Shown: in pieces, positions 7,780 to 63,334 of the stretch | How the letters are laid out: each line of letters opens with the position of its first letter | Numbering within the stretch: the first letter of the stretch is position 1 | Source of the DNA: Desulfococcus multivorans | GTDB taxonomy: Bacteria; Desulfobacterota; Desulfobacteria; Desulfobacterales; Desulfococcaceae | Reading direction: 5' to 3' | Assembly (NCBI RefSeq): GCF_001854245.1 | Contig: NZ_CP015381.1 | Span: 3,755,001 to 3,819,000 of the forward strand | Length of the DNA stretch: 64,000 bases | Translations under genes and position numbers: made by a program | The notes under the pieces: generated by a model | What the model was told of the DNA's origin: nothing | The model's database searches: none | What the model saw: only the letters and a program-made list of their open reading frames with translations

Positions 7780-7797
7780 ACTCCCCCAAGGCTGCAT

Positions 7798-7892: not shown

Positions 7893-7904
7893 ATGAAATG
7901 ATCC

Positions 7905-9512: not shown

Positions 9513-9633
9513 GACCTGCCTCCTTGGTTGTGGCTCTGTGTTAGGGCGTTGATACCTTATACATAACCCACGTTTGCAAGGAAGGCAGGTCTTTTTTTTG
9601 GGTAACCACAATATATTCCATCCGAGGATATCA

Positions 9634-9698
9634 GCAGAGATTCATCATGGGCGAGAATGGGTCACCAAAACTCGTCGGAGCCCATGATGAATCTCTGC
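9634..9698. repeat. Perfect 19-bp inverted repeat upstream of the IS110 fragment
   Basis: GCAGAGATTCATCATGGGC (9634-9652) and its exact reverse complement (9680-9698) are separated by 27 bases. It lies in the 5' flank of the IS110 fragment. IS110/IS1111 elements often recognise or insert in palindromic repeats, so it could be a target or part of the element end. It has no T-tract and so is probably not a terminator. Confidence 0.75.
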
Positions 9699-9820
9699 GG
9701 GTTGCGCAGATCCGGACGTTCCGGAAACTCGGATGGTAACTGTCAATCATTATGTCTAACACCCTAACACCGCCCCGAAGGGGCCAACCCGACCCCCTTT
9801 CGGGGATCGGGCGCTTCGGG

Positions 9821-10183: not shown

Positions 10184-10310
10184 GATGTTTTCTCCTTTCC
10201 ATGTTGTTGTGGGTTTATCGCCAACGGTCAACCGTTGTCTCTGTCATAGCAGGGCTGGGAAAAGGATGGGGCGAAGGGGGGGAAGGATGGGGTTTTGAAT
10301 GGAAAAAGGG

Positions 10311-10366
10311 GTTAGGGTGTTAAGGTATTAAGGTGTTAGGGTGTTAGAGTTTTAGGTGATTAGCGT
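10311..10366. repeat. GTTAGGGT/GTTAAGGT short-period repeat
   Basis: Words such as TTAGGGTG, TTAAGGTA and TTAGAGTT run in tandem; this is the complement of the CCCTAAC family. The following 10370-10655 has no gene and is AT-rich towards 10620, probably holding the promoter of the MarR gene. Confidence 0.7.
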
Positions 10367-10655
10367 TTCAAACGATCCGGGGGTCGGTTCCAAAATTTAC
10401 AAGAAAATGACGTTTTCTTAGAAGGGGGTTGGCGCACGAAGCAAAGCTTTGTATGCTAATCATATATTTTCGGATCTGGATGCGATGGATGGCGTAATAA
10501 CATATTGGAATAGATTATAAAAAAAGATAAAAAAAATTGCCGATTGGCCTTGCTTCGGATTTAAAAACATTGTGTACAAAATATTTAGGTCTTGATTATC
10601 TCCTTCTCAACTATTAACATCAGGTAATTTTAACCCGAGAAAGTGGGCATTTGAA

Positions 10656-46273: not shown

Positions 46274-47482
46274 TTGCGAATTATCTACACTCATCAATAC
46301 TTCAATACTCCATCCATGTCCGGCGGTACCCGCTCCTACGAAATAGCCCGGCGACTTGTGACAGCCGGTCATAAAGTTCACATGATCACCAGCGATCGCC
46401 GCAGCAAAAATTCAGGAGATTGGTATCATACAGCAGAAGAAGGAATTCATGTTCATTGGTTGCCTGTGCCGTACGGCAACGCCATGCCCTATCATAAGCG
46501 TATAAAAGCATTTCTTAACTATGCAGCCAAAGCTGGTCCCTATGCCAGCCGCTTTAAAGCCGATGTCATTTTTGCCACTAGCACACCTTTGACAATAGCA
46601 CTTCCCGCTATTTACGCCTCCAAAAGATTAAAAATCCCGATGGTTTTTGAAGTGCGTGATCTTTGGCCGGAATTGCCAATCGCCGTTGGAGCGCTCAAAG
46701 GGCCCCTTATACCGCCTGCCCGCTGGTTAGAACGATTCGCTTACAAAAATTCATCAGAAATCGTTGCGTTATCGCCTGGAATGAAAGAGGGTGTTGTTCG
46801 CGCCGGATACCCATCTGAGCATGTTCATGTTATCCCTAACAGCTGCGATGTCGACCTATTTCAGGTGCCTTCCGAGGTGGGTGCTGCATTCCGCAAGCGT
46901 TTTCCCTGGTTGGACAACCGTCCTTTAGTAATATACGCAGGTACATTTGGTCGGATAAATGGCGTTGGATATCTTGCCCGATTGGCTGCTGAAACGAGGA
47001 AGTTGGCACCTGAGGTGTGTTTTCTTGCCGTTGGAGATGGGTATGAATTCGATATGGTGACCAGGCTTTCGCGCGAACTTGGTGTACTTAACCAGAATTT
47101 TTTCGTGATGCCACAGCTGCCAAAATCCGAAATGCCGGCCCTATTTTCTGCTGCCACGATTTCTACATCCACCGTTATCGATCTCCCTCAAATGTGGGCC
47201 AACTCGGCCAATAAATTTTTTGACTCACTTGCATCAGGCCGACCAGTGGCAATAAACTATGCGGGCTGGCAAGCCGATTTAATAAAAGAAACCGGGGCCG
47301 GGTTGGTCTTACCCCCAAAGGATTTACCCGGAGCAGCTCGATTATTGATAAGTGCGCTGAATAATAAGAATTGGCTAAAAAAAGCAGGAAAAGCAGCCTT
47401 GGCCCTTGCACGTGATCGTTTTGATCGAGATCTATTGGCCAAGCAACTTGAAGCCGTTTTGCTTAAAGCTGTTCATAAATGA
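46274..47482 (+). CDS. Glycosyltransferase, WbuB-like GT4
   Basis: 402 residues. Starts with TTG at 46274 (weak TTAGG upstream) giving RIIYTHQYFNTPSMSGGTRS, the characteristic N-terminus of WbuB-type fucosaminyl transferases. PMVFEVRDLWPELPIAVGAL and VIYAGTFGRINGVGYLARLA are also typical. GC content is intermediate, rising towards the right flank of the insert. It couples to the sugar transferase by an ATGA overlap. Confidence 0.88.
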   Translation: MRIIYTHQYFNTPSMSGGTRSYEIARRLVTAGHKVHMITSDRRSKNSGDWYHTAEEGIHVHWLPVPYGNAMPYHKRIKAFLNYAAKAGPYASRFKADVIFATSTPLTIALPAIYASKRLKIPMVFEVRDLWPELPIAVGALKGPLIPPARWLERFAYKNSSEIVALSPGMKEGVVRAGYPSEHVHVIPNSCDVDLFQVPSEVGAAFRKRFPWLDNRPLVIYAGTFGRINGVGYLARLAAETRKLAPEVCFLAVGDGYEFDMVTRLSRELGVLNQNFFVMPQLPKSEMPALFSAATISTSTVIDLPQMWANSANKFFDSLASGRPVAINYAGWQADLIKETGAGLVLPPKDLPGAARLLISALNNKNWLKKAGKAALALARDRFDRDLLAKQLEAVLLKAVHK

Positions 47483-48090
47483 AAATGAAACGATGTTTTG
47501 ATCTTCTACTGGCAGTTTCCGCCTTCATCGTTTTATCCCCCCTCCTCATCGCCGTCGCCGCCGCAATATACCTCACCATGGGCCGTCCCGTCTTTTTCCG
47601 CCAGACCCGCCCCGGGCTTAACGGCAAGCCCTTCCAACTCATCAAATTCTGCACCATGACCAACGGCTGTGATGCCGACGGATGCCTGTTGCCGGACTGC
47701 GAGCGCCTGACCCGGCTGGGCCGGTGGCTGCGCAGCACCAGCCTGGACGAGTTGCCGGAGCTGTTCAATATCATCAAAGGGGATATGAGCATCGTGGGGC
47801 CGCGGCCCCTGCTGATGCAGTATCTGGACCGCTACACCCCGGAGCAGGCACGGCGCCACGAGGTCAAGCCGGGGTTGACGGGATGGGCGCAGATCCATGG
47901 ACGCAACGACATCTCCTGGGAAGACAAGTTCAACATGGATGTCTGGTATGTGGACCATCAATCCCTGTGGCTGGACATCAACATCATCCTGATGACCGTG
48001 GGCAAGGTGTTGAAGCGGGAAGGGATCAGCCAGGCAGGGGAAGCCACGGCGGCGGAGTTTATGGGTCACGCCGGGACGCAACGCCGCTGA
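47479..48090 (+). CDS. Bacterial sugar transferase (initiating phosphoglycosyl transferase, PglC-like)
   Basis: 203 residues. One N-terminal re-entrant membrane helix (FDLLLAVSAFIVLSPLLIAV), then GRPVFFRQTRPGLNGKPFQL, the catalytic Asp-Glu of LRSTSLDELPELFNIIKGDM, and SIVGPRPLLMQYLDRYTPEQ. It transfers a phospho-sugar, probably a diaminosugar or acetamido sugar, onto undecaprenyl phosphate to start the repeat unit. Base composition changes from AT-rich to GC-rich within the first 15 codons, marking the edge of the exchanged cassette. Codons from 47655 onward are duplicated at 49681. Confidence 0.93.
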   Translation: MKMKRCFDLLLAVSAFIVLSPLLIAVAAAIYLTMGRPVFFRQTRPGLNGKPFQLIKFCTMTNGCDADGCLLPDCERLTRLGRWLRSTSLDELPELFNIIKGDMSIVGPRPLLMQYLDRYTPEQARRHEVKPGLTGWAQIHGRNDISWEDKFNMDVWYVDHQSLWLDINIILMTVGKVLKREGISQAGEATAAEFMGHAGTQRR

Positions 48091-48450
48091 AAAAAGCCAA
48101 AAAACAATCTTGTTTCGTTTTTGCGTGAGGATATTTCATGAAACACATCGCCATTTATGGTTCCGGCGGTTTTGGCCGGGAGGTGGCCTGGCTGGCAGAG
48201 TCCTGCCCGGCGTTCAGGATCGAATGCTTTATTGACGACGATCCCCTGCTGGACAGCAAGATCGTCAACGACATCCCGGTCATGTCGTTCGAGGCCTTCT
48301 GCCGGCATACCTGGGACAATGCAGGGAAGCCTGCGATCGTCAGTGCCGTCGGCGCCCCCAAGGTCCGCCAACAGGTAATGGAAAAAGTCCGCCGGGCCGG
48401 GTTTGCCTTTGATACCCTGATTCACCCCCGAACCGAGATGTCCCGGTGGG
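47655..48450 (+). repeat. Direct repeat, left copy (sugar transferase 3' part + acetyltransferase 5' part)
   Basis: About 796 bases starting ATGACCAACGGCTG and ending at TCCCGGTGGG match 49681-50474 with only scattered substitutions and one small indel. The left copy has a complete transferase and a truncated acetyltransferase; the right copy the opposite. Recombination between them would excise the 2.0-kb DUF2971 segment and leave one intact gene pair. Confidence 0.93.
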
Positions 48451-48473
48451 GAATGACCGGAGATCGACGATGA
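48138..48473 (+). pseudogene. PglD-like acetyltransferase, truncated copy
   Basis: 111 codons beginning HIAIYGSGGFGREVAWLAES, the Rossmann-like N-terminal domain of PglD/NeuD-type sialic or bacillosamine acetyltransferases. It follows the intact copy at 50162 until SRWG, where homology stops and the frame ends MTGDRR. The left-handed beta-helix catalytic domain is absent, so it is not functional as an acetyltransferase. Confidence 0.9.
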
Positions 48474-48769
48474 TGCGGTCAACTTCTATTTCTTCACGGG
48501 CCAGTATTCCCAATCCCAAACTACAGCGAACCTTCGGCAACCAACGGCATAGGCGGTTTTGTGCTTTACCAGGCCTTTTATGCGTGCATTTTGGTTTGAG
48601 CTTTCCAGGCGCCTTCGTTGCCCACCGATCCCGCCGGCAACCTTCTATTGCTTCAAAATAATTGATCGGTATGCTCGTCATCATATCAACCGGTATATGT
48701 CCTGTTGATGGCGTTTATGACCTAAACGATGGCTGGAACTGAAGTTGACCCCGAATCAGAAAAGATGAG
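48451..48769. other. Unassigned segment after the left direct repeat
   Basis: About 320 bases. The minus strand holds a coding-like stretch (CRWLPKVRCSLGLGILAREE, about 48480-48650) that could be a transposase C-terminal remnant, but I do not recognise it. GTTGACCCCGAATCAG occurs at 48747, shortly before the DUF2971 gene. Confidence 0.35.
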
Positions 48770-49513
48770 ATGACGTCCGAAAAAGTCTATAAATACATGA
48801 CGCTGACCTGTGAGAGCATACCTCGTGTCGCAAACATTGTTCGTACCGCAGAATGTTGGTTTTCAAAATTTCATCACCAGAATGACCCGATGGAAGGCGT
48901 TTTTTTTTATTACCCAGCCTTCGAGAAGCTGGCCGAACAAATAACCAATCATAAAAATCTTTATACAATCTGCTCTTTTGGAAATTCAGAAAACAATCCA
49001 ATCTTATGGGCCTATTATACAGGTGGTTTTCGTGGCGTATCCATCGGCATTTCAATCGATCAAAGTTGGGAAAAGATGACGAAAAAAAATAGCAGAACGG
49101 GAGGAAAAAAATTATGGTGTAAAGTTGTCTACAAAAAACAAGCTGAATTTGAAAGCGCTTTTTCCGAGGTTGAAGCCCCTGAATCGATTGCGAAAAAACT
49201 TATATCGCAAAAACTGGACTTCTGGAAACCCGAAAGTGAAATCCGCCTGATATACCAGAACGCTGAGCCGGGTTTGGTTGAAGTAGGTAAAATTATCTCC
49301 CTGACTTTCGGGTGCAATATACCCCTTAAGAAAATAGAGTGTCTGATAAATCAGTTGAAGGAAGCCGATATAGATGCCGTTGCCTTTAACATTGCATCGC
49401 CAAACTCTGAAAAAAGCGGCGATCCTGTCAGTATTGAGAAAATAGAAGGTTTTGAAGAACTCAAGACAAAATTTGAAGAATACCATGAATGGCGCAGCCG
49501 TTTCACCTGGTGA
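48770..49513 (+). CDS. DUF2971 protein
   Basis: 247 residues. VYKYMTLTCESIPRVANIVR, CWFSKFHHQNDPMEG, TICSFGNSENNPILWAYYTG and GFRGVSIGISID are the DUF2971 hallmarks (the FNDPFE-like and LWAHYA-like motifs). Function is unestablished; members often occur in defence and mobile islands. It is foreign to polysaccharide synthesis and enclosed by the 800-base direct repeats. Its composition is AT-richer than the repeats on either side. Confidence 0.85.
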   Translation: MTSEKVYKYMTLTCESIPRVANIVRTAECWFSKFHHQNDPMEGVFFYYPAFEKLAEQITNHKNLYTICSFGNSENNPILWAYYTGGFRGVSIGISIDQSWEKMTKKNSRTGGKKLWCKVVYKKQAEFESAFSEVEAPESIAKKLISQKLDFWKPESEIRLIYQNAEPGLVEVGKIISLTFGCNIPLKKIECLINQLKEADIDAVAFNIASPNSEKSGDPVSIEKIEGFEELKTKFEEYHEWRSRFTW

Positions 49514-49680
49514 GCGTGCGGCAGTGTTTGATTGGAATTTAACACCCTGGAATTTTTAATATTAGATTTGTATAGACACTGATGATCACAGATTCATCCG
49601 CGTCCTTTCAGGTGCATTTCCGACAAATAAATTGAAACTGATTGTATCATTATAACACGGATCATCTGGGGTGGCATTTC

Positions 49681-50106
49681 ATGACCAACGGCTGCGATGC
49701 CGACGGATGCCTGCTGCCGGACTGCGATCGCCTGACCCGGCTGGGCCGGTGGCTGCGCAGCACCAGCCTGGACGAGTTGCCGGAGCTGTTCAATATCATC
49801 AAAGGGGATATGAGCATCGTGGGGCCGCGGCCCCTGCTGATGCAGTATCTGGACCGCTACACCCCGGAGCAGGCACGGCGCCACGAGGTCAAGCCGGGGT
49901 TGACGGGATGGGCGCAGATCCATGGACGCAACGACATCTCCTGGGAAGACAAGTTCAACATGGATGTCTGGTATGTGGACCATCAATCCCTGTGGCTGGA
50001 CATCAACATCATCCTGACGACCGTGGGCAAGGTGTTGAAGCGGGAAGGCATCAGCCGGGCGGGGGAAGCCACGGCAGCGGAGTTCATGGGCCACGCCGGG
50101 ACGTAA
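49681..50106 (+). pseudogene. Sugar transferase, N-terminally truncated copy
   Basis: The frame matches the intact protein at 47479 from MTNGCDADGCLLPDCDRLTR to the end, lacking the first 59 residues, that is the membrane helix and the RQTRPGLNGKP segment. The catalytic Asp-Glu and GPRPLLMQ block are kept. Without the membrane anchor it should be inactive. It ends four codons earlier than the left copy. Confidence 0.9.
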
Positions 50107-50474
50107 CGCCTCTGAAAAAAACAAAAAACAATCTTGTTTCGTTTTTGCGTGAGGATATTTCATGAAACACATCGCCATTTATGGTTCCGGCGGTTTTGGC
50201 CGAGAGGTGGCTTGGCTGGCGGAGTCCTGCCCGGCGTTGAGGATCGAATGCTTTATTGACGACGATCCCCTGCTGGACGGGAAGATCGTCAACGACATCC
50301 CGGTCATGTCGTTTGAGGCCTTCTGCCGGCATACCCGGGACAATGCAGGGAAGCCTGCGATCGTCAGCGCCATTGGGGCCCCCATGGTCCGCCAACAGGT
50401 CATGGAAAAAGTCCGCCGGGCCGGGTTTGCCTTTGAAACCCTGATTCATCCCCGAACGGAGATGTCCCGGTGGG
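49681..50474 (+). repeat. Direct repeat, right copy
   Basis: Partner of 47655-48450. The left edge coincides with ATGACCAACGG and the right edge with TCCCGGTGGG, beyond which the intact acetyltransferase continues (TGGAGATCGGAGAGGGC). The sequence just left of it (49514-49680) holds no gene I can support. Confidence 0.93.
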
Positions 50475-50818
50475 TGGAGATCGGAGAGGGCACGGTGATC
50501 TGCGCCGGGTGTATCCTGACCACCAATATCCGGCTGGGGGAGCACGTCCAGATCAATCTGGACTGCACCATCGGCCACGACGTGGTGATGGCGGATTATG
50601 CCACCCTGGCGCCGGGGGTGCACGTGTCCGGTTTTGTCCACCTGGGAAAACGGGTCTATGTGGGCACAGGCGCGGTGTTTCTGAACGGCACCCGGGACAA
50701 CCCTCTGATTGTGGGCGATGACGCCGTGATCGGCGCGGGGGCCTGCGTAACCAGGGATGTTCCGCCCAATGAAACATGGGGGGGGGTGCCGGCAAGGGAA
50801 CTTCGGAGAAGCAAATAG
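50162..50818 (+). CDS. PglD/NeuD-like sugar O/N-acetyltransferase, intact copy
   Basis: 218 residues. N-terminal UDP-sugar-binding domain (HIAIYGSGGFGREVAWLAES), then left-handed beta-helix hexapeptide repeats: VEIGEGTVICAGCILTTNIR, INLDCTIGHDVVMADYATLA (His-Asp catalytic pair) and PNETWGGVPARELRRSK at the C-terminus. Family members acetylate the 4-amino group of a UDP-amino sugar from acetyl-CoA. With the sugar transferase and the DegT aminotransferase this makes a bacillosamine-like pathway likely. Confidence 0.93.
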   Translation: MKHIAIYGSGGFGREVAWLAESCPALRIECFIDDDPLLDGKIVNDIPVMSFEAFCRHTRDNAGKPAIVSAIGAPMVRQQVMEKVRRAGFAFETLIHPRTEMSRWVEIGEGTVICAGCILTTNIRLGEHVQINLDCTIGHDVVMADYATLAPGVHVSGFVHLGKRVYVGTGAVFLNGTRDNPLIVGDDAVIGAGACVTRDVPPNETWGGVPARELRRSK

Positions 50819-50847
50819 CCCCCCAGGCTTCTCAAATTCCCGCACCG

Positions 50848-51285
50848 TTGAACAGAGAGGATGATCAGCGTGATCCGCGCAATCTGGGAACTGCTGCTGC
50901 CGATCGTTTCGCAGACTGGCAATACCCGGTGATCGAGGACGGCAAGCCCACGAAATACAACTGGGTGGTTCAACACAAGGACAACCTGCGCCTGGGATAC
51001 AAGACCGACATCGGCGCCTTCACCTACATCAACGCCAAATACGGCGTCACCATCGAGGACCATGTCCAGATCGGATCCCACTGCGCCGTCTATTCCGTAT
51101 CCACCATCGACAACAAGACCGGCCCCGTGGTGCTCAAACGAAACTGCAGGATAGGCACCCACAGTACGATCATGCCGGGGGTCACGGTGGGCGAAAACGC
51201 GGTGGTGGGGGGGCATAGTTTTGTGAACCGGAACGTGGGGGAGGGGGCGGTGGTGGTTGGGGTGCCGGCGAAGGGGCGATGGTGA
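50848..51285 (+). CDS. Hexapeptide acyltransferase, possible N-terminal frameshift
   Basis: The readable protein contains DRFADWQYPVIEDGKPTKYN and WVVQHKDNLRLGYKTDIGAF, then hexapeptide turns GVTIEDHVQIGSHCAVYSVS to SFVNRNVGEGAVVVGVPAKG. TTG 50848 would start this frame. However ATG 50861 with AGAGAGG upstream starts another frame, ISVIRAIWELLLPI, that matches the usual N-terminus of this family. A 1-2-base slip in the CTGCTGCTG run (about 50892) would join the two. Either an unusual start or a frameshifted gene. Confidence 0.7.
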   Translation: MNREDDQRDPRNLGTAAADRFADWQYPVIEDGKPTKYNWVVQHKDNLRLGYKTDIGAFTYINAKYGVTIEDHVQIGSHCAVYSVSTIDNKTGPVVLKRNCRIGTHSTIMPGVTVGENAVVGGHSFVNRNVGEGAVVVGVPAKGRW

Positions 51286-51376: not shown

Positions 51377-51736
51377 ATGAGAAAAAACATCATCCAGGAC
51401 AAGACTTATCAGTTCGCTCTCGATGTGGTTCAGCTTTATATCCAGATTCGGGCTCGGAAGGAGTTTGTTTTGTCCAGGCAGTTGCTTCGGTCGGGTACCA
51501 GTATCGGGGCGAATGTCGAGGAAGCTGTTGCCGCTCAATCCAAAAAGGATTTTATCTCCAAAATGTCGATCGCTTCCAAGGAAGCCAGAGAAACACACTA
51601 CTGGCTCCGCCTGTTCCGCGACAGCCAACTCTGCCCCAACCTCCCCCTGTCGGGGTTGATAGCGGATTCTCAGGAAATCATAAAAATTCTCACCTCGATC
51701 GTCAAAACAGCGCAAAAAAACAATGGTGAATTTTGA
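51377..51736 (+). CDS. Four-helix-bundle protein (23S rRNA intervening-sequence protein type)
   Basis: 119 residues: KTYQFALDVVQLYIQIRARK, LSRQLLRSGTSIGANVEEAV and FISKMSIASKEARETHYWLR are the S23/IVP family blocks. These proteins are encoded in 23S rRNA intervening sequences but also occur as free genes. Its last residues (KKNNGEF) are encoded by the start of the downstream AT-rich repeat. Repeats of the same family on both sides suggest it moved as a unit with them. Confidence 0.9.
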   Translation: MRKNIIQDKTYQFALDVVQLYIQIRARKEFVLSRQLLRSGTSIGANVEEAVAAQSKKDFISKMSIASKEARETHYWLRLFRDSQLCPNLPLSGLIADSQEIIKILTSIVKTAQKNNGEF

Positions 51737-51891: not shown

Positions 51892-53172
51892 ATGCCCAAA
51901 ACAAATCCCCCCTCCCCCCGCATCTTCCTCTCCCCCCCCCACCTCGGCACCGAGGAGTTCAACTTCGTGCGCGAGGCGTTTGCGTCCAACTACATCGCGC
52001 CCCTGGGGCCTCAGGTGGACGCGTTTGAGCGGGCCTTTTCCGAATACACCGGCATCCCCCACTGCGTGGCCCTTTCCAGCGGCACGGCGGCCATGCACCT
52101 GGCCCTGCGCCATCTGGGGATCGGGCCCGGGGACGAGGTGTTCGCTTCCACCCTCACCTTTATCGGCAGCGTAACGCCCATCGTGTTCGAGGGGGCGGTG
52201 CCGGTGTTCATCGACGCGGACCGCACGTCGTGGAACATGGACCCGGATCTGCTGGCATCGGCCCTGGCAGAACGCGACCGCAAGGGAAAGCTGCCCAAAG
52301 CGGTGGTGCCCACGGACCTCTACGGCCAGTGTTCGGATTACGCGCGAATCTATGCGGTGTGCGAGCGCTACGGTGTGCCGGTGGTGGTAGATGCGGCAGA
52401 AGCCATGGGAGCGAAATATAAAAACAATTATGAATTAGGAATGTTGAATTATGAATTAAACCATTCAACATTCAAAATTCAAAATTCAACATTCAAAATC
52501 CCCCGCCACGCGGGGACCGGTGCTTGGGCATCGGTTTTTTCCTTCAACGGAAACAAGATCATGACGACATCAGGCGGGGGGATGCTGGCGTCCGAGGACA
52601 AGGACCTGATCGCGCATGCCCGGTTTCTGTCCCAGCAGGCCCGGGAGCCGTTTCCGCATTACGAGCACACCGAGATCGGGTACAACTACCGGATGAGCAA
52701 CATCGTGGCGGGCATCGGCCGGGGGCAGCTCATGGTGCTGGACGAGCGGGTGCGGCGCAAGCGGGAGATCTTTGCGTATTATGCCGAGGCGTTGAAGGAT
52801 GTGCCGGGGATCGCGTTCATGCCCGAGGCGGCCTACAACCAGTGCAACCGGTGGCTCACGGTGATCCTGATCACGCCGGAAGTCTTCGGGGCGGACCGGG
52901 AGGCGGTGCGGCTGGCCCTGGAGGCGGAGAACATCGAGTCCCGGCCGGTGTGGAAACCGATGCACCTGCAGCCGGTGTTCAACGTGCCGGGCCTTGGCGC
53001 CGGGGCGTCGGGGAACGGAGGGAAAAGGCGCTATCCGGCCCGGGTGGTGGGCGGCGGGGTTGCCGAGGACCTGTTCGAGAGAGGATTGTGCCTGCCGTCG
53101 GGAACGGCGATGACGGCGGGGGAGTTGGAGCGGGTGGTGGGAGTGATTCGGGGAGTGGGGGGGGAATTATGA
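51892..53172 (+). CDS. DegT/DnrJ/EryC1/StrS-type sugar aminotransferase with a repeat-derived insert
   Basis: 426 residues. PLP-dependent: LSSGTAAMHLALRHLG, PTDLYGQCSDY, VVDAAEAMGAKYK, the Schiff-base Lys in SFNGNKIMTTSGGG (Lys 222), and QLMVLDERVRRKREIFAYYA. It would form a UDP-amino sugar such as the bacillosamine precursor. Residues about 178-204 (NNYELGMLNYELNHSTFKIQ...) replace a short loop and are encoded by the AT-rich heptad repeat; no homologue has such a loop in the usual family layout. The tail is also repeat-derived. Activity with the insert is uncertain. Confidence 0.9.
   Translation: MPKTNPPSPRIFLSPPHLGTEEFNFVREAFASNYIAPLGPQVDAFERAFSEYTGIPHCVALSSGTAAMHLALRHLGIGPGDEVFASTLTFIGSVTPIVFEGAVPVFIDADRTSWNMDPDLLASALAERDRKGKLPKAVVPTDLYGQCSDYARIYAVCERYGVPVVVDAAEAMGAKYKNNYELGMLNYELNHSTFKIQNSTFKIPRHAGTGAWASVFSFNGNKIMTTSGGGMLASEDKDLIAHARFLSQQAREPFPHYEHTEIGYNYRMSNIVAGIGRGQLMVLDERVRRKREIFAYYAEALKDVPGIAFMPEAAYNQCNRWLTVILITPEVFGADREAVRLALEAENIESRPVWKPMHLQPVFNVPGLGAGASGNGGKRRYPARVVGGGVAEDLFERGLCLPSGTAMTAGELERVVGVIRGVGGEL
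52423..52503 (+). repeat. Heptad palindrome inserted in frame in the DegT gene
   Basis: About 81 bases of GAATTAGGAATGTTGAATTA words followed by ATTCAACATTCAAAATTCAA words. It lies between codons for AKYK and RHAG, and its length keeps the reading frame open with no stop. Confidence 0.9.
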
Positions 53173-55703: not shown

Positions 55704-57395
55704 ATGGATCGGTTACCCCTGGATGATCAGTTTTTAATCCTGCTGCACAAAAAGATCATGAACAAACGCGGGTCCGCCAGACGCCGGGCCAAAAAATACT
55801 ACATGGACCAATACCGGAAGACCGGCATCATCCCCGAACCGCTTTTACTGGCAGGCAAGGGGATTATGGAGGGGCGCAGATGCAGCGGGCGAAGACGTTC
55901 CATCGATGAGCGGATGAAACACCGGTTTATCGAAATGGTCAAAGCCTCGAGCGACCCTTCAAGCCAGGGGTTTATTTTTATCACCCAAAAGGCCCGAACG
56001 ATCAAAAATTACCATCGGTGGCTTGAAGAGGAATTTGGCCGGCCCATCTCGCTTTCGGCACTGAGGCGGCTGGTCAAGGCAGAAGGCCTCCAGCGGTATC
56101 TGGATCAACCGGATTTTGGTGAAGAAAAACCGCCAAAACACTGCTTCAAATCTGAATCCGTATTCGATCTGATACAGGTTGACGGAAGTGCTTTTCGATA
56201 TCTCAAGGTACGGGATCAGAACGGCATGTGGCGAAAACCCCAGGTGATCGAATTTTACGATACCCGGTCACGCTACCTGTTTGTTTTGGATATCTATTTT
56301 TCCGAAACAAGCCTGAATGCGGTCGATCTATTTGAGCAATTTCTGTTGAGCACCCCGTTTCCCCGAAAGAAAATCCGTCTCCGCCCGGACAATGCCGGTG
56401 GATTTTTAAATTTGAAGCGCGTGATCACTGCACTGAATACAGAATACTCTCAGCCTGACGGTTTCTATCTGGAACCGGATTTTGCAAGAGCCCGGACGCC
56501 CCGGGACAAGGCCCATCTGGAATCCTCCCATCGCAGTCTGCATCATTTCGAAATCCGGATCATCAAAGCCTTTGCGGACCGCATTGTAAAAACCGAGCCG
56601 GGGTATCTCTTCACCAACAGGAAAAAAGAGAAAATCACGGTGACCTTTCTGGATATCGGCCTTCATGAACTCCGCCAAAAACGCATCATCGAGGCCTACC
56701 GGGAAGAGCACAACACGACGCGGCACTATTTTGCCCATGACGGAAAGACGGCATCCTGGGTCCCGGCCCAAAACATGGCGTCATTTTTGGACAAGGCCTC
56801 CACGTTTTCCTTTGATCCGTCGCACGTCAAGGCGATCATGAAATACGGGTTCAAGAAGATCAAGGTCACCGTATCGAAAAAAGGGACCATCACGTTAAAC
56901 AATCAGAAATACTACGTGGCCGTGGGCGCCGAACATTTTAGCCGCCACAAGGGCACACCGGTCTATGTCTCGGACCTGAAAGACAAACTTTTCATCTTTG
57001 AATACAAATCCGACGGCATGCTGATCGGCGAAGCCCTTCGGCAGAAGCCCTATGAAAAACCGCCGAAGTCATCGGAATTGACATTTGAAGCCAACGAGGT
57101 CGAGCAGATAGCCGCCTTTCTGGAGCAGCAGAACATGGTGGTGGAAAGAGCCGCACTGATCGAAAAACACCGCAAGGGACTGACGCTTGCCGTAGCTGAA
57201 GAGATTTTTAACCATAACAAAACCCGGTATGACGGCTATGCCGGAAAGCTGATGCAATCCCCGAAAAAAATCGGAACGGCCCTGTTCAACGCTTTTATGC
57301 TGGACTGTGAACGCCATCAGCGAAGGAATCATGTGGCGCCGTACGCCTCTTTATGGGACAGACAACATGAAACGAAAAGAGACGTTCATCAATGA
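55704..57395 (+). CDS. DDE integrase-type transposase (TniA/MuA-like)
   Basis: 563 residues. N-terminal HTH-like segments (residues 1-150) are followed by an rve-type catalytic core: first Asp in FDLIQVDGSAFRYLKVRD (about 155), second Asp in KKIRLRPDNAGGFLNLKRVI (about 230) and Glu in RDKAHLESSHRSLHHFEIRI (about 275), a DDE triad. A beta-barrel domain follows (VAVGAEHFSRHKGTPVYVSD). It would bind the TGTAACGC sites and carry out strand transfer. The stop overlaps the ATPase start by 29 bases. Confidence 0.9.
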   Translation: MDRLPLDDQFLILLHKKIMNKRGSARRRAKKYYMDQYRKTGIIPEPLLLAGKGIMEGRRCSGRRRSIDERMKHRFIEMVKASSDPSSQGFIFITQKARTIKNYHRWLEEEFGRPISLSALRRLVKAEGLQRYLDQPDFGEEKPPKHCFKSESVFDLIQVDGSAFRYLKVRDQNGMWRKPQVIEFYDTRSRYLFVLDIYFSETSLNAVDLFEQFLLSTPFPRKKIRLRPDNAGGFLNLKRVITALNTEYSQPDGFYLEPDFARARTPRDKAHLESSHRSLHHFEIRIIKAFADRIVKTEPGYLFTNRKKEKITVTFLDIGLHELRQKRIIEAYREEHNTTRHYFAHDGKTASWVPAQNMASFLDKASTFSFDPSHVKAIMKYGFKKIKVTVSKKGTITLNNQKYYVAVGAEHFSRHKGTPVYVSDLKDKLFIFEYKSDGMLIGEALRQKPYEKPPKSSELTFEANEVEQIAAFLEQQNMVVERAALIEKHRKGLTLAVAEEIFNHNKTRYDGYAGKLMQSPKKIGTALFNAFMLDCERHQRRNHVAPYASLWDRQHETKRDVHQ

Positions 57396-58035
57396 CAAAC
57401 GCCGCGTTTCCTATCTGGCGGCGATCTACAATCGAATCTACCGCGGACAGAGCGTGCTCATCGAAGGCGATTATGGCGTCGGCAAGAGTCGATTTTTAAA
57501 CCTGATCCAGCCTCAGAAACTCCGGGGGGTCCGGGCGGAGACGCTTTTCAATATCCACGAACTGCCGGCATCCATCCTTCAGGAATTGAATTATGACGTG
57601 AAAGCCACCTACCGGAGGACACCGCGTCATTTGAAACAGATCTGCAGCCTGTCCGGATTTTTTATTGTCATGGACGAGAGCAATGATCTGGATCGCCGGG
57701 CATGGCCCTATCTGAAACGCATTATCGATGCCGGGGTTCCCATCGTATTTGCCGGACTGCCCAAGGTCAGAACATATCTGTCGAGCGAACATCCGGATAT
57801 CCTGAGCCGACTTAAAACGCTCGTTCTCTACCCGATCGTCGTGGAAGATTTTATTCTGGAGTACAAAGATTTTGAACCCGAAGCGATCGAGCAAATCTAT
57901 GTCCATACCCGCGGGGACATGCGCAAATTCAAGGAGGTCTGCACCGATTGCCGGGACAAGGCAAAAGAACTGAATCACAGCCTTATCGACCTCAACCTTG
58001 CGCTTGAGTTCCTATCCGACCTGCCCCTCATTTAA
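57367..58035 (+). CDS. AAA ATPase transposition protein (TniB/MuB-like)
   Basis: 222 residues from ATG 57367. Walker A EGDYGVGKSRFL lies at about 38-49, Walker B FFIVMDESNDL at about 97-107, and IVFAGLPKVR the sensor region. MuB/TniB/TnsC-type ATPases bind target DNA and activate the transposase. It is the last gene; a stem GGGAGTC/GACTCCC at 58051-58074 lies beyond the stop without a T-tract. Confidence 0.9.
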   Translation: MKRKETFINDKRRVSYLAAIYNRIYRGQSVLIEGDYGVGKSRFLNLIQPQKLRGVRAETLFNIHELPASILQELNYDVKATYRRTPRHLKQICSLSGFFIVMDESNDLDRRAWPYLKRIIDAGVPIVFAGLPKVRTYLSSEHPDILSRLKTLVLYPIVVEDFILEYKDFEPEAIEQIYVHTRGDMRKFKEVCTDCRDKAKELNHSLIDLNLALEFLSDLPLI

Positions 58036-58680: not shown

Positions 58681-58944
58681 GGGGTCGGGCCAAGCCAAAC
58701 CGTTGTTATCCCAGGAATAACGCATGAAAACAGGCCGGGATATCGCCTTAAACGGTCATTTTTGGGGGCAAAATGGTGGGTTTAAGGAGCGGTGACGCGG
58801 CAATGCCGGGAACATCCGCACCCATTCACGATTTCTCACTAAACCCTTCAATTTCACCCTTGAAAATGCCGGTTTAAGGGCCAAATACGGCGATTTTTGA
58901 CCATTTTTTCTTTAAATATCAGGCAGGTTGCTTGGCCCGACCTC
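58681..58944 (+). repeat. Hairpin element, subfamily B, copy B1
   Basis: 264 bp. Starts GGGGTCGGGCCAAG and ends CTTGGCCCGACCTC. Subfamily B keeps the outer repeat and the first hairpin idea (CCTTAAACGGTC / GTGGGTTTAAGG) but has a different middle (CAATGCCGGGAACATCCGCA) and a second fold near GGTTTAAGGGCC. It begins right after the terminator. Confidence 0.9.
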
Positions 58945-58965
58945 GTGAACAAAGCTGCTTTTCCC

Positions 58966-59286
58966 TTAAGCGGCGTAAAGCACTTCGCCGTCTCGGGCGA
59001 AATCGGCTATGAAGGTGTCTCCTTGATCCCACTCATCAGGTGTCAGGGCCGTCGCTTCGAGCGGCGCAAATATTTCGTAAACGGCATCGGTCAGGATATC
59101 GATTCGCTCCCAATAGCCTTTGCCGGCAAAATCCTCGGATATGACAACAATATCGATATCGCTGCCCGCCTGTTGAGCGCCGGCGGCGTAGGATCCGTAA
59201 AGGATAATCCTTGAAGCCCGGATGCCGCGCGCTTCGATAGCCTTACGAAATCGATCGACCAGTTCTACAGCTGCTTTTTTATCCAT
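58966..59286 (-). CDS. mntA: MNT-type minimal nucleotidyltransferase antitoxin
   Basis: 106 residues. GSYAAGAQQAGSDIDIVVIS is the GSx10DxD signature. It follows its HEPN partner in the same operon, starting 22 bases inside the HEPN gene. The longer DELDQ-type C-terminus (TPDEWDQGDTFIADFARDGE) is typical for this subfamily. This is the only apparently intact MNT/HEPN pair in the window. Confidence 0.88.
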   Translation of the reverse strand: MDKKAAVELVDRFRKAIEARGIRASRIILYGSYAAGAQQAGSDIDIVVISEDFAGKGYWERIDILTDAVYEIFAPLEATALTPDEWDQGDTFIADFARDGEVLYAA

Positions 59287-59645
59287 CCAATGACCTCCTC
59301 CCCTTTGGAAAGAATATCTTTGACAACGGGCTCGCTATATATTTTCTGAAGCTTTGCCAGATTTTCGGGGTAACGGGTCGGGATGCTCGACGTGCTCAAT
59401 TTCACAATGAACTTGCCGGGCGCTGCCGGAGGTTTGATGCCGATTTCATTAAGAAGATAGATCAGGTTATGCGATTTCGGTGGAATTTTCCGGAAATTCT
59501 CGTAGTAAAGTCCCTTTAACGCTTTCTCGACAGCGAGGTGGCACATAAAGACGGCATATATATGCCGACCGCCTTTATGCATGTAATAAGCGGTATCCAG
59601 ATCATAATCCGCCTGCCGCAGCCATTCTTCGGTTCGCTTTTCCAT
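59265..59645 (-). CDS. hepT: HEPN toxin
   Basis: 126 residues from ATG 59645 (ATG 59657 is an alternative). EEWLRQADYDLDTAYYMHKG and AVFMCHLAVEKALKGLYYEN are the HEPN helices; RKIPPKSH is the R-X6-H RNase-type motif. In HEPN/MNT pairs the toxin is an RNase silenced by AMPylation of a nearby Tyr. Elements B1 and B2 flank the pair on either side without entering it. Confidence 0.88.
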   Translation of the reverse strand: MEKRTEEWLRQADYDLDTAYYMHKGGRHIYAVFMCHLAVEKALKGLYYENFRKIPPKSHNLIYLLNEIGIKPPAAPGKFIVKLSTSSIPTRYPENLAKLQKIYSEPVVKDILSKGEEVIGWIKKQL

Positions 59646-59714
59646 TATGGATATCATATCAAATCACTGCGAAAGAATTCAACCTGAAAAGCTGCCATTC
59701 AATGCGTTCCAATT

Positions 59715-59978
59715 GGGGTCGGGCCAAGCCAACTCATTGTTATCCTGGGAATAACGCCTCAAAACAGACCGGGATATCGCCGTAAACGGTCATTTTTGGG
59801 GGCAAAATGGTGGGTTTAAGGAGCGGTGACGTGGCAATGCCGGGAACATCCGCACCCATTCACGATTTCTCACTGAACCCTTCAATTTCACCCCTGAAAA
59901 TGGCGGTTTAAGGGTCAAATGTGGCGATTTTTAGCCATTTTTCCTTTAAATATCAGGCAGGTTGGTTGGCCCGACCCC
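59715..59978 (+). repeat. Hairpin element, subfamily B, copy B2
   Basis: 264 bp, almost identical to B6. CCAATT precedes the left end. The right end reads GGTTGGTTGGCCCGACCCC and directly replaces the 5' part of a UPF0175 gene. Confidence 0.9.
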
Positions 59979-60159
59979 CGGCCCCGCAAAAATGGCCATG
60001 GCGGTAAAGCTGTTCGAGATGAAACGACTTTCATCCGGAATGGCTGCGGAATTGGTCGGAATGAGCAGGGTTGCCTTTTTGCTCAACCTTCACCGTTTCA
60101 ATGTGCCCATGGTCGACCTTGAAGAGGATGAACTCCTGATGGATGTGAAAAATGCCTGA
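59979..60159 (+). pseudogene. UPF0175 antitoxin gene lacking its 5' end
   Basis: Reads AMAVKLFEMKRLSSGMAAEL and VGMSRVAFLLNLHRFNVPMV, then DLEEDELLMDVKNA: the C-terminal two thirds of UPF0175, a helix-turn-helix antitoxin-like family usually paired with a PIN (DUF3368) toxin. The N-terminus is lost to the right end of B2, and no PIN gene follows; 60160-60341 holds only GCAAAGGCGCAAAGG-type low-complexity words (60260-60290). Confidence 0.82.
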
Positions 60160-60341
60160 TCCGGGCGCGGACGAGATCTCCCGTCTCGAGCCCATCTTGC
60201 GCGAAGGGTAGTGAGCGGCGTGAGGTTGTTTTTGCTTCGGAAGACTTGTATAAAGGTTTCTCACGCAAAGGCGCAAAGGACGCAAAAAGGATTATATCTT
60301 GCGATCCATTTCATGCTCATTTCAAGCAAAGCCCAATGTAA

Positions 60342-60503
60342 ATGCATAAAAAAGAGTTGATAGAATACTGGCTTCAATCCTCCGACAGAGATTTCCAGAC
60401 GATGATGCATTTGCTTGAAAAAGGTGACTTTACCCAAAAATGGACGGATATCATTAAGGATTTCAGAAAATGGCTAAAGGAAAAACTCCTGAAACAGCTA
60501 TAA
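60342..60503 (+). pseudogene. HEPN gene with internal deletion
   Basis: 53 codons: MHKKELIEYWLQSSDRDFQT, MMHLLEKGDFTQ is a HEPN N-terminus, joined directly to KWTDIIKDFRKWLKEKLLKQ, a HEPN C-terminal helix. The central helices and the RX4-6H motif are missing, so it cannot be an RNase. It overlaps the MNT gene that follows. Confidence 0.75.
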
Positions 60504-60799
60504 AATACATTAACTTTTTGCGGAAACAAGAACCTGGAATCATAAAAGCCTACCTTTTCGGTTCCTATGCCAAAGGTAATGCCGATATCAACAGTGATAT
60601 GGATATCGCCATTATTTTTGAGGATTTCCCGGATTCTTTCGATATGCCGGTCCAATTGATGAAACTGAGAAGGAAATTCGATACCCGAATTGAACCCCAC
60701 CCCTTCAGAAGGAAGGACTTCAATATTTCAAATCCCATGGCAAATGAAATACTGAAAACCGGGATTGAGATTGAGGGGTCTGACCTGGACAACCCATAA
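60470..60799 (+). CDS. MNT-type minimal nucleotidyltransferase antitoxin
   Basis: 109 residues. GSYAKGNADINSDMDIAIIF is the catalytic signature. It overlaps the deleted HEPN gene by 34 bases. It is another orphan antitoxin, as at 8506, 20757 and 21285. GCGCAAAGAAGGC words follow the stop up to element B3. Confidence 0.87.
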   Translation: MAKGKTPETAIKYINFLRKQEPGIIKAYLFGSYAKGNADINSDMDIAIIFEDFPDSFDMPVQLMKLRRKFDTRIEPHPFRRKDFNISNPMANEILKTGIEIEGSDLDNP

Positions 60800-60854
60800 A
60801 TATTCTCACACAAAGGCGCAAAGAAGGCAACGAGAAGATAATGATATGGCAATT

Positions 60855-61049
60855 GGGGTCGGGCCAAGCCAACCCATTGTTATTCTGAAAATAATGCCTC
60901 AAAACAGGCCGAAATATCGCCTTAAACGGTCATTTTTGGGGGCAAAATGGCGGGTCTAACGAATAGTGAAGTGTCAATGCCGGGAGCATCCGCACCCATT
61001 CATGATTTCTCATCAAGCCCTTCAATTTCCCCCTTTAAAAATGGCGGTA
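60855..61049 (+). repeat. Hairpin element, subfamily B, copy B3, right end missing
   Basis: Begins GGGGTCGGGCCAAG after GCAATT and follows the B consensus to AAAATGGCGGT at about 61049. The last 65 bases, including the right terminus, are absent; the HigBA promoter starts at 61057. Confidence 0.88.
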
Positions 61050-61056
61050 ATCACGT

Positions 61057-61090
61057 TTGACGTTATTAACGACATGCGTTAATATTTAAA
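61057..61090 (+). promoter_or_regulatory. higBA promoter and operator, first copy
   Basis: -35 TTGACG (61057-61062) and -10 TAATAT (61080-61085) with a 17-base spacer. The spacer and -10 carry the palindrome TTAACG-ACATG-CGTTAA, a likely HigA operator. The -10 ends 5 bases before ATG 61091, so the transcript would be leaderless. Confidence 0.78.
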
Positions 61091-61369
61091 ATGATTGTAT
61101 CGTTCAAATGTCCGTATACAGAAGCTTTGGCTGAAGGCCGCAGAGAGAAGCGCTTTGTGAACATCGAACGGATTGCGATGCGAGAGCTTCGGCAACTTCA
61201 GATCGCAGCACGCCTTGACGATCTTAAGGTGCCTCCCGGCAATCGTCTGGAAGCCTTGAAAGGCGATCGTACCGGGCAGCACAGTATTCGGATCAACAGT
61301 CAATTTCGCATCTGTTTTCGCTGGACTGCGGCCGGGGCGGCGGATGTCGAAATTGTGGATTACCATTAG
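61091..61369 (+). CDS. higB: HigB-type RelE-fold toxin
   Basis: 92 residues. ALAEGRREKRFVNIERIAMR and LQIAARLDDLKVPPGNRLEA, then GDRTGQHSIRINSQFRICFR are the HigB/plasmid-maintenance-killer signatures. It would be a ribosome-dependent mRNA endonuclease. The upstream promoter overlaps the end of element B3. Spacing to higA is 10 bases. Confidence 0.92.
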   Translation: MIVSFKCPYTEALAEGRREKRFVNIERIAMRELRQLQIAARLDDLKVPPGNRLEALKGDRTGQHSIRINSQFRICFRWTAAGAADVEIVDYH

Positions 61370-61379
61370 GAGTTTCGCC

Positions 61380-61712
61380 ATGCGTGAACTTTTTCCCGTA
61401 ACACCGGGAGAGCTGCTGCTCGAGGAGTTCCTGAAACCGATGGGCATTTCCCGGTATCGTCTGGCCCGCGAGATCGGTGTTCCACCGCAGCGGATCAGTG
61501 CAATTGTCGCGGGCAAGCGACGAATTACCGCGGATACCGATCTGCGCCTTTGCCGGTTTTTGGGTTTATCTAACGGATATTGGCTGCGCGCACAGGCTGC
61601 GTTTGATATCGAGGTTGCGCAGGACGCGCTTTCCGAAACCCTGAAAGCCATCCGTCCCTGGAAAGCCACGATGGGGTCGGGCCAAGCCAAGTCCTTGTTA
61701 TCCCGGAAATAA
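61380..61712 (+). CDS. higA: HigA-type antitoxin, C-terminus encoded by element B4
   Basis: 110 residues from ATG 61380 (AGGAGT upstream). The HTH_3/XRE domain reads TPGELLLEEFLKPMGISRYR, LAREIGVPPQRISAIVAGKR. It binds HigB and its own promoter. At codon 98 the gene enters the left end of B4, and the last 12 residues (GSGQAKSLLSRK and neighbours) plus the stop come from the element. The conserved part ends at about RPWKA, so the fold should be intact. Confidence 0.9.
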   Translation: MRELFPVTPGELLLEEFLKPMGISRYRLAREIGVPPQRISAIVAGKRRITADTDLRLCRFLGLSNGYWLRAQAAFDIEVAQDALSETLKAIRPWKATMGSGQAKSLLSRK

Positions 61713-61936
61713 TGCCTCAAAACAGGCCGAAATATCGGCTTAAACGGCCATTTTTGGGTGCAAAATGGCGGGTCTAACGAATAGTGAAGTGTCAATGCCG
61801 GGAGCATCCGCACCCATTCATGATTTCTCACCAAGCCCTTCAATTTCACCCCTGAAAATGGCGGTTTAAGGGCCAAATACGGCGATTTTTGACCATTTTT
61901 CCTTTAAATATCGAGCAGGTTGCCTGGCCCGACCCC
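61673..61936 (+). repeat. Hairpin element, subfamily B, copy B4
   Basis: 264 bp. Left end GGGGTCGGGCCAAG overlaps the final codons of higA; right end TTGCCTGGCCCGACCCC. It separates the HigBA module from the BrnTA module. Confidence 0.9.
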
Positions 61937-61946
61937 CATGACCCCA

Positions 61947-62177
61947 TCAGGAATGTTGTGCGGCATATTCATCCAGAAGCCTTCGAATCATCTTCTGGTA
62001 TTGGGTATGGTGCTTTTTCGCTTCGCTTTTAAAAAAATCGATGCTGGTTTTGCTCAATGAAATCGTTATCTTTACGGTTTCCTCCTTGAGTGCCAGCTCG
62101 CTGGGCGGCGGCAGAAAATCTTTCACGATTTTCACCTTTCCCATCGGTTCATCCGTGTATTTTATTTTCTCTTTCAT
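61947..62177 (-). CDS. brnA: BrnA-type antitoxin
   Basis: 76 residues. DFLPPPSELALKEETVKITI and SLSKTSIDFFKSEAKKHHTQ, then YQKMIRRLLDEYA, show the BrnA layout with a ribbon-helix-helix DNA-binding part. The start lies 29 bases inside the brnT gene. It should neutralise BrnT and repress the operon. Confidence 0.88.
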   Translation of the reverse strand: MKEKIKYTDEPMGKVKIVKDFLPPPSELALKEETVKITISLSKTSIDFFKSEAKKHHTQYQKMIRRLLDEYAAQHS

Positions 62178-62445
62178 AAATCTGCTTTCCCTTTCGCCAA
62201 TATCCGGCGCCGATGATTTTGATTTTGTCCTGTCGATACGTGAACCGAACGGTCATGATGCCGTCCGCGATCCTGCCCAGGCAATAATATCGCTTCTCAT
62301 CACGGCTATGCTCAAGATCCTCCAGAATCACACGATGCTCATCTAAAAAGGCAAGCTGCGCGAGCGCAAAGGATACACCATGCTTTTTTTGGTTGCTTTT
62401 ATCCTTTTCGCTGTCCCATTCAAAATCAGATTGCCGCTTCATCAT
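62149..62445 (-). CDS. brnT: BrnT-type toxin
   Basis: 98 residues. FEWDSEKDKSNQKKHGVSFA near the N-terminus and RDEKRYYCLGRIADGIMTVR, FTYRQDKIKIIGAGYWRKG are the BrnT RelE-like RNase signatures. The pair is complete and lies in the opposite direction to the HigBA modules on either side. Confidence 0.92.
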   Translation of the reverse strand: MMKRQSDFEWDSEKDKSNQKKHGVSFALAQLAFLDEHRVILEDLEHSRDEKRYYCLGRIADGIMTVRFTYRQDKIKIIGAGYWRKGKQIYERENKIHG

Positions 62446-62524
62446 TTAAAAATATATTTACACCGCCATATTGTCAATATATAAATATGGCTTTTTATAT
62501 GGCTTATCTAAGCAATCGGTGCAA

Positions 62525-62750
62525 TTGGGGTCGGCCCAATGCGGCTTGGCGGCTTCCAAGCAGAAATGCCAGGGCGTTGACCCGTATAACGGTAATCGTT
62601 ATAGATACCGCCTTGCGATTGGCGCAAGTCCTGGGAATGCCGGCCGACTTCCGGCTTGGGCTCCAGCAAGACTGGGATCTTTGGCATGCAATGAACGGTC
62701 CGGGCGCGGGGACGCCGAGGCCTTCGGATTCAACCGGTTCAAAGGGCTGA
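62525..62750 (+). pseudogene. higBA locus deleted to promoter plus higA 3' fragment
   Basis: 62527-62603 repeats the sequence before the second higBA locus (63379-63457): GCGGCTTGGCGGCTTCCAAG, TTGACCCG and the ATAACGGTAATCGTTAT operator. It then jumps to GATACCGCCTTGCGATTGGC, identical to higA at 63937, encoding LRLAQVLGMPADF and LGLQQDWDLW. higB and the first half of higA are deleted. The stretch to 62945 has no gene I can name. Confidence 0.85.
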
Positions 62751-62953
62751 AGACAAAAATCGAAAAGGGGCACGCGGCCCAGTTCCGTCTGCTGACCGAT
62801 TGGTTTCAGAACTGCGGGGAGGCCGTTGATTTCCTTTCAGGAGATCGAGAATGTCAGCCGGGCGTTCGTTGCGTGTATTATAAGCTTGACGCCAGGGGGG
62901 GGTGGCGGTTTGATATTGCGTTCAGCCTATCCAATTGCTATCAATTATGATTT

Positions 62954-63067
62954 GGGGTCGGGCCAAGCCAAGTCCTTGTTATCCCGGAAATAATGCCTCA
63001 AAACAGGCCGAAATATCGGCTTAAACGGCCATTTTTGGGGGCAAAATGGCGGGTTTAAGGAGCGGCA
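62954..63067 (+). repeat. Hairpin element, subfamily B, copy B5, truncated
   Basis: Left part only (GGGGTCGGGCCAAG to GTTTAAGGAGCGGC), then a new left end (B6) begins after CAATT. Its 5' 100 bases are nearly identical to B4. Confidence 0.88.
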
Positions 63068-63070
63068 ATT

Positions 63071-63334
63071 GGGGTCGGGCCAAGCCAACCCTTTGTTATC
63101 CCGGAAATAACGCCTTGAAACAGGCCTGAATATCGCCTTAAACGGTCATTTTTGGGGGCAAAATGGTGGGTTTAAGGAGCGGTGACGTGGCAATGCCGGG
63201 AACATCCGCACCCATTCACGATTTCTCACTGAACCCTTCAATTTCACCCCTGAAAATGGCGGTTTAAGGGTCAAATGCGGCGATTTTTAGCCATTTTTCC
63301 TTTAAATATCAAGCAGGTTGGTTGGCCCGACCCC
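63071..63334 (+). repeat. Hairpin element, subfamily B, copy B6
   Basis: 264 bp, full length, next to the truncated B5. Right end GGTTGGTTGGCCCGACCCC. It is followed by a second, solo right terminus CTTGGCCCGACCCC (63341-63354). Confidence 0.9.

Follow-up and report, generated by a model that had tools for sequence, protein, structure and literature searches.

A 64,000-nucleotide (nt) stretch of the Desulfococcus multivorans genome (hereafter the window; positions 3,755,001–3,819,000 of a single contig of 4,455,399 bases) carries a polysaccharide gene cluster in which a gene of the DUF2971 family lies between two partial copies of the same pair of sugar-processing genes. All genes of this locus read on the forward strand. 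The upstream neighbour of the pair encodes a GT4-type glycosyltransferase (46274–47482; PF13579/PF13439/PF00534), whose homologue upstream of pglC in the relative G002 is 57% identical. It is followed by a pglC-like sugar (phosphoglycosyl) transferase gene (47479–48090) that matches the Bac_transf profile over its whole length (PF02397, positions 1–179 of 179, 3e-65), and by a 3′-truncated sugar acetyltransferase gene (48138–48473) that retains the PglD N-terminal domain (PglD_N, PF17836) and has no hexapeptide repeats. Then comes an insert of 1,229 nt (48451–49679), present once in the genome according to DNA searches, that harbours the DUF2971 gene (48770–49513; 247 amino acids). Downstream of the insert the order resumes with a frame (49642–50106) for a 5′-truncated sugar transferase, whose product by alignment is missing the 59 N-terminal residues of the intact protein and covers only positions 72–179 of PF02397, and with a whole NeuD/PglD-type sugar acetyltransferase gene (50162–50818; TIGR03570, 199.5 bits with a cut-off of 160.8) that includes both PglD_N and the Hexapep repeats. 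Two further native operon genes encode a second hexapeptide acyltransferase (50776–51285; PF00132; homologues of 61–80% identity in 7/9 relative loci) and a DegT/DnrJ aminotransferase (51892–53172; PF01041, 5.1e-88; homologues of 66–72% identity in 6/9).

The two sides are related by a direct repeat of 796 nt (47655–48450, which holds the last 71% of the whole pglC) and 795 nt (49680–50474), the longest direct repeat detected by blastn in the window, whose copies differ by 30 substitutions and a single 1-nt indel. The left copy kept the upstream neighbour and the right copy the downstream neighbours. An initial annotation made from the letters alone had described an 800-base direct duplication with reciprocal truncations around a DUF2971 gene, and each element of that description stands: the end coordinate of 50474 is exact, the PF02397, PglD_N and Hexapep profiles place a whole transferase and a cut acetyltransferase on the left and the reverse on the right, and the enclosed protein scores 27.2 bits against PF11185, above the curated cut-off of 22. 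The same annotation predicted that one recombination would leave a perfect operon, as in-silico joining of the copies bears out, since all 158 of 158 joining points give a pglC product of 200 or 203 amino acids and a pglD product of 218. As it stands, the arrangement leaves pglC and pglD each intact once. A DNA search of the genome with 47400–50900 returned a single location, itself; with no third copy, no present-day paralogue is available as the donor.

The only whole pglC has a cysteine codon at 47648–47650, within a KF(R/K)(T/S)M motif in which eight relatives have arginine or lysine at this position, and the initiating transferase may thus be altered.

The roughly 4% difference between the copies is compatible with two strain variants of the operon having been joined in one contig during assembly. 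We regard such an artefact as very unlikely, because the locus lies within a single contig of a genome rated 99.99% complete and 0.5% contaminated, and because strain mixing alone would not account for an insert that has a pglC-pglD fragment physically attached at each of its ends.

The composition of the insert sets it apart: its G+C content is 42.3%, compared with 59.7% in both repeat copies and 57.0% across 400 kb sampled from the genome. DUF2971 is its one recognisable gene. It is also the longest frame of the insert and the sole one searched with profiles, the others being overlapping or shorter, and no recombinase was found there; nor is there a frame besides DUF2971 long enough for a transposase. 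By eye the insert ends have no terminal inverted repeats, and the duplicated sequence of 796 nt is not a short target duplication. The flanks of the gene within the insert (48451–48769 and 49514–49679) are unlike the sequences that pglD and pglC have lost, and elsewhere in the genome they have only matches of chance length. An integrase-driven genomic island was rejected as the insert has neither a tyrosine nor a serine recombinase, and a transposon insertion as there is no transposase, no inverted-repeat ends and no clean short target duplication. The 6-nt sequence ATGACC, which occurs close to either end of the insert, was likewise rejected as a target duplication, being offset from the left junction and unaccompanied by element ends.

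Divergence of the copies, relatives and origin

The two copies were aligned, a check proposed by the initial annotation. The coding differences comprise 9 nonsynonymous and 18 synonymous changes, and they spare a tract of 289 nt (47704–47992, partner 49729–50017) that is identical in both copies and bounded by differences at 47703 and 47993. Had one branch evolved throughout as a neutral fragment, 56–59% of the changes would be expected to be nonsynonymous, and the probability of finding 9 or fewer among 27 is then 0.005–0.015; it is 6e-5 with both branches neutral and 0.62 with both under selection (omega 0.2). The predominance of synonymous differences indicates that most of the divergence was gathered while both copies worked as genes. 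Largely, then, the sequences suggest divergence under mainly purifying selection, with the copies either in separate lineages or side by side as two complete pairs in tandem. The identical tract is too long for evenly spread differences (p 3.5e-5 for all sites and 2e-4 for synonymous codon positions) and most plausibly marks a crossover or a gene conversion.

These counts bear directly on a duplication made in place. Replication slippage or microhomology-mediated repair is a common origin of partial tandem duplications, and either process, acting while the insert was captured, could have truncated the copies at once and left the fragments to diverge; the ATGACC match near both insert ends is in keeping with it. 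Under such a history the nonsynonymous differences are too few, at the probabilities given above for one or both neutral branches, and a divergence of about 4% demands long residence without recombinational loss. We therefore consider it improbable.

Relatives carry the operon uninterrupted, in the single-copy form that the initial annotation suggested looking for. The order pglC-pglD-acyltransferase-degT occurs in genomes G046 and G015 at 61–80% protein identity, with a small extra open reading frame between pglC and pglD in the former and between the acyltransferase gene and degT in the latter, and G002 has GT4-pglC-acyltransferase-degT without pglD. Nine relative loci were read (L061–L069), and two whole pglC-pglD pairs did not occur at any of them. 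One of these, L067 of G025, has two pglC matches, one of them partial, and no pglD; paralogy of pglC by itself does therefore occur. Searches beyond these loci gave more distant matches: PglD was found at three distant loci among genome contigs (61, 51 and 42% identity), and a distant DNA search of plasmids returned 57 records, 54 of them at 60–80% identity, of which the 20 listed are sugar transferases or unannotated.

The pglC-degT operon also contains small accessory genes: a 23S_rRNA_IVP gene in the window (51377–51736) and, judged by eye, a GxxExxY-like frame in L061 (6684–7055) and a nucleotidyltransferase-like frame in L064 (5518–6183). As these differ across relatives, the operon seems prone to insertion.

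The absence of two whole pairs from the 9 relative loci matters for a second history, in which the whole pglC-pglD was first duplicated in tandem, both pairs worked for a while, and the junction between them, from the 3′ end of the first pglD to the 5′ end of the second pglC, was later replaced by the DUF2971 segment. This sequence of events gives the same final structure, and under it one would also expect the copies to differ mainly at synonymous sites and to undergo gene conversion; against it, two events are needed and the insertion has to span the junction. On balance we deem it unlikely.

We lean, with moderate confidence, towards a different history, in which an imported homologous fragment integrated together with a foreign DUF2971 gene, through recombination and without the agency of a dedicated mobile element. 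In the donor segment a foreign DUF2971 gene would have been linked to a fragment of a related strain's or species' operon, namely the 3′ part of pglC and the 5′ part of pglD, and it would have recombined with the resident GT4-pglC-pglD-acyltransferase-degT operon through the shared pglC-pglD sequence. A circular donor would require a single homologous exchange (insertion-duplication), and a linear one a homologous exchange plus an illegitimate join. In either case the cargo would come to lie between partial copies, the left keeping the whole pglC and the right the whole pglD. This recombination reading draws on the anatomy of the locus, the deviant composition of the insert, the single-copy order in relatives, the synonymous divergence, the identical tract and the in-silico restoration, from which we infer the foreign origin of one copy, the single exchange, the state of the donor as circle or linear fragment and the participation of host recombination enzymes. 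It is the likeliest among formally similar histories: a circle, a linear fragment and a later-replaced tandem duplication leave an identical final sequence, by which they are indistinguishable. Of the initial annotation's proposal of a Campbell-type integration of a circle, the homologous recombination is supported by the restoration, the single-copy relatives, the purifying selection and the identical tract, and the circle shares its outcome with a linear donor.

Several observations weigh against import by homologous recombination. DNA matches to the operon occur in 16 of 58 genomes (own included), the longer ones at 67–73% identity, and there is none in the sole other genome of the genus; at such identities neither copy can be assigned as foreign. 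A donor arrangement with DUF2971 beside pglC-pglD did not emerge from a search of 388 other genomes, with two candidates scored per genome, in which matches to the insert DNA reach at most about 45 nt. A six-frame search of 96 genomes (own included) with the window's DUF2971 protein recovered the protein itself and nothing in the 95 others. For the insert, neither a circle nor a recombinase was seen. Finally, relatives polarise six amino-acid differences between the copies, and as read from the alignment the derived residue stands in the truncated copy at five of these positions and in the intact copy at the sixth, which implies some decay after truncation.

Predicted properties of the DUF2971 protein

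Beyond its PF11185 match, the insert protein matches no other Pfam family. It is recognised by the PADLOC model PDC-S31 (PDLC04991; 1.5e-30, residues 5–208 of 247), in whose name PDC presumably stands for phage-defence candidate, and by phrog_1762 (1.9e-21). Single-protein searches of genome-contig and viral-contig collections with the window protein retrieved no relative, and translated searches gave matches of 25–26% identity in four Vibrio phage-like records among 50,697 and in three Rhizobium plasmids among 72,556. With two other DUF2971 proteins as queries, 20 relatives were found among viral contigs.

A structure model built from an alignment of 21 sequences has a mean predicted local distance difference test score (pLDDT) of 84.7 and a predicted template modelling score (pTM) of 0.83, compared with a pLDDT of 35.2 for the single-sequence model. 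In a VIA-align 2 comparison its best neighbours are DarT proteins at Z 6.2, short of the level of 8 under which the tool advises caution (root-mean-square deviation 3.6–4.1 over 136–141 residues), followed by Tpt1/KptA and many ADP-ribosylating toxins; sorted by title, 48 of the 50 rows listed are ADP-ribosyltransferases or Tpt1/KptA. Foldseek returned no match in the PDB and one nameless match among viral models at E≤0.001, and a profile search up to E 1 found no solved structure among sequence relatives of DUF2971. Residues N38, D39, W80, Y83 and G89 are invariant in 21/21 rows of the alignment, and E155, E157 and R159 occur in 20/21, with one gap. At two positions that are histidine in 20 and 19 of the 21 rows, the window protein has Y82 and F87, leaving the activity of this particular protein uncertain. 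On the basis of the profile match and the predicted fold, the DUF2971 cargo probably acts as a defence gene encoding an ADP-ribosyltransferase-like enzyme. The open-access literature searched yielded no paper on the function of DUF2971, PDC-S31 or PF11185, DUF2971 being named in a single paper, a genome reannotation, and none giving DUF2971 an ADP-ribosyltransferase fold. If true, such a fold would provide a testable chemistry for the family.

Direct repeats around DUF2971 and AbiEii genes

The initial annotation further proposed that DUF2971 may travel by homologous integration in general. PF11185 was detected in 36 of 291 genomes of the order, with 53 matches listed, and the DNA around all 52 matches outside the window was read, many of the contigs being short; the window gene was excluded as the starting case. 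We counted same-strand pairs of at least 150 nt and at least 80% identity with 400–10,000 nt between the copies, a definition that excludes L073 (by distance), L074 (76%), L089 (74%) and all repeats of 50–149 nt. For comparison we used 40 AbiEii genes, hand-picked from a list and mostly on longer contigs, and 720 kb of control DNA, comprising 20 stretches of 20 kb taken evenly from the same genome and 20 of 16 kb from seven further genomes of this order. Direct repeats, whatever their nature, enclose 6/52 DUF2971 genes (five loci) and 4/40 AbiEii genes; repeat enclosure is therefore not special to DUF2971. In the control DNA 12,762 of 720,000 bases (1.8%) are enclosed, in 4/40 stretches (L105, L106, L114 and L133), and by eye all of these pairs are of tandem-repeat protein, repeat-element or transposase type, with no fragments of ordinary genes; pairs of lower identity (65–74%) occur in L114, L115, L120, L125 and L136. 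Against the 1.8% background the binomial P is 3e-4 for DUF2971 and 5e-3 for AbiEii, and as defence genes set against random DNA make a biased comparison, this excess indicates only a repeat-rich setting for such genes.

Copies of ordinary-gene fragments enclose three of the 52 DUF2971 genes, at two loci (L149 and L169), and two of the 40 AbiEii genes (L182 and L206). L149 has two DUF2971 genes between copies of the 3′ end of a gene that by eye is hydrolase-like (293 nt, 92%, about 8 kb apart). At L169 (G262, contig C16) an sbcC-type gene, identified by its SbcC Walker B domain, has its 3′ end repeated (221 nt at 94% plus further pieces); three such traces, one whole and two decayed, lie at 717–879, 3327–3762 and 6670–7629 with small cargo genes, DUF2971 included, between them, and the locus looks like the product of successive insertions at one gene end. 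Both AbiEii loci have the AbiEii gene and a neighbouring AbiEi-like frame flanked on one side by an intact regulator gene and on the other by an incomplete copy of it: the 3′ end of a TetR-type gene in L182 (G074, 7028–10478; 329 nt, 98.8%), and in L206 (G279, 6865–10213) a helix–turn–helix regulator and a copy (356 nt at 88%) that lacks about 230 nt at its start and has an internal deletion, an arrangement for which paralogy is possible. The remaining enclosed DUF2971 genes lie, by eye, between copies of a 188-nt repeat resembling a miniature inverted-repeat transposable element (MITE; L072), of an intron- or reverse-transcriptase-type element (L088) and of unassigned repeats (L151), and the remaining AbiEii genes between copies of a transposase-like gene (L179) and of a 150-nt repeat (L197).

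Enclosure by gene fragments thus recurs around other DUF2971 genes (3/52), and with 2/40 for AbiEii it is not peculiar to DUF2971. The numbers are small, and the case that DUF2971 generally travels by homologous integration, as far as these sequences suggest it, is weak. A wider reading would be that small, recombinase-free defence genes recurrently insert by homologous recombination of a co-travelling fragment of an ordinary host gene, and that DUF2971/PDC-S31 is an unrecognised ADP-ribosyltransferase defence family; we put this forward as a speculative, rather doubtful proposition. Under this wider reading the incoming fragment would repair its target and so render the insertion harmless, and decayed fragments would mark successive arrivals (L169, L182, L206 and the pglC-pglD copies described here). 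Islands without a recognisable integrase or transposase hold many defence genes. If it is true that partial copies of ordinary host genes are scars of arrival, a search for duplicated gene fragments around small cargo would allow homologous capture to be tested directly, by counting.

Other repeats were noticed around these genes. In L074 a DUF2971 gene lies between repeats of about 445 nt (7249–7693 and 9257–9701; 76%) whose ends look by eye like the attC sites of integrons, and repeats of about 65–105 nt surround AbiEii in L175, L177, L194, L197 and L208. The window itself carries, at 1411–25890 and 58681–63334, a family of repeats of about 250–269 bp with two subfamilies and at least 14 copies, including partial ones; two members have the ends GGGGTCGGGC...GCCCGACCCC, and a similar pair occurs in L105. 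Between 58681 and 63760 copies of this family separate genes of toxin–antitoxin type (a nucleotidyltransferase with HEPN, a lone nucleotidyltransferase, HigB-like with helix–turn–helix, BrnT, and another HigB-like), so that the family looks like a MITE- or cassette-like array. The DegT aminotransferase gene contains, in frame at 52420–52505, an AT-rich intergenic repeat of heptamer type (AATTATGAATT / AATTCAAAATTC) that adds about 28 residues; repeats of this type also fill neighbouring intergenic gaps. Downstream of the polysaccharide cluster is a Mu/Tn7-like transposase and ATPase pair (55704–58035; phrog_310 and phrog_296), and the reverse strand at 7817–7890 carries a c-di-GMP-I-GGC riboswitch aptamer (68.7 bits).

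Comparison with known systems

Natural transformation of Streptococcus pneumoniae offers one parallel. According to the published account, import of partly homologous DNA generates merodiploids, direct duplications formed via alternative pairing, which span about 100–900 kb, involve a chromosomally repeated stretch and arise by unequal crossing-over between chromatids (PMC3784515). The unit described here is different, measuring about 2 kb and having no third copy that we could find. A published model of integrase-free cargo entry shares with our locus the use of housekeeping recombination at flanking genes; it differs in invoking a double exchange at both flanks, which we infer would leave no duplication. 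The titles and abstract openings of the open-access literature on defence genes with gene-fragment duplications contained nothing directly on point, and PMC6350997, rejected as a parallel, concerns a megacircle based on insertion sequences, an event of a different kind.

Three further comparisons concern the fragments and the cargo. The predicted DUF2971 fold has DarT as its best structural neighbour; sequence identity to DarT is 6–10%, and the insert has no second gene that could serve as a DarG-like partner. Integrases acting at gene 3′ ends bring a replacement 3′ end with them, as prophage e14 does in icd, restoring the target and leaving a fragment behind. L169 and L182 look like such events; the window insert differs from them in having no recombinase, and in that the homology lies in the middle of a two-gene operon rather than at a gene 3′ end. 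Orphan effector–immunity modules of Rhs and contact-dependent inhibition (CDI) systems, displaced by recombination, likewise leave gene fragments beside small competition cargo. Their cargo and target genes are other ones.

Campbell-type integration, that is, insertion-duplication by a single homologous exchange, shares with our locus a cargo between reciprocally truncated copies of the target, a target whose function is kept and an insertion that one exchange would excise. The locus differs in that no donor molecule was seen and that its copies are 4% apart, pointing either to a donor fragment from another lineage or to an old event. The DUF2971 locus of D. multivorans thus adds a new example to a known kind of event, and it hints at a possibly general, testable theme: an integrase-free route by which defence genes may enter genomes.

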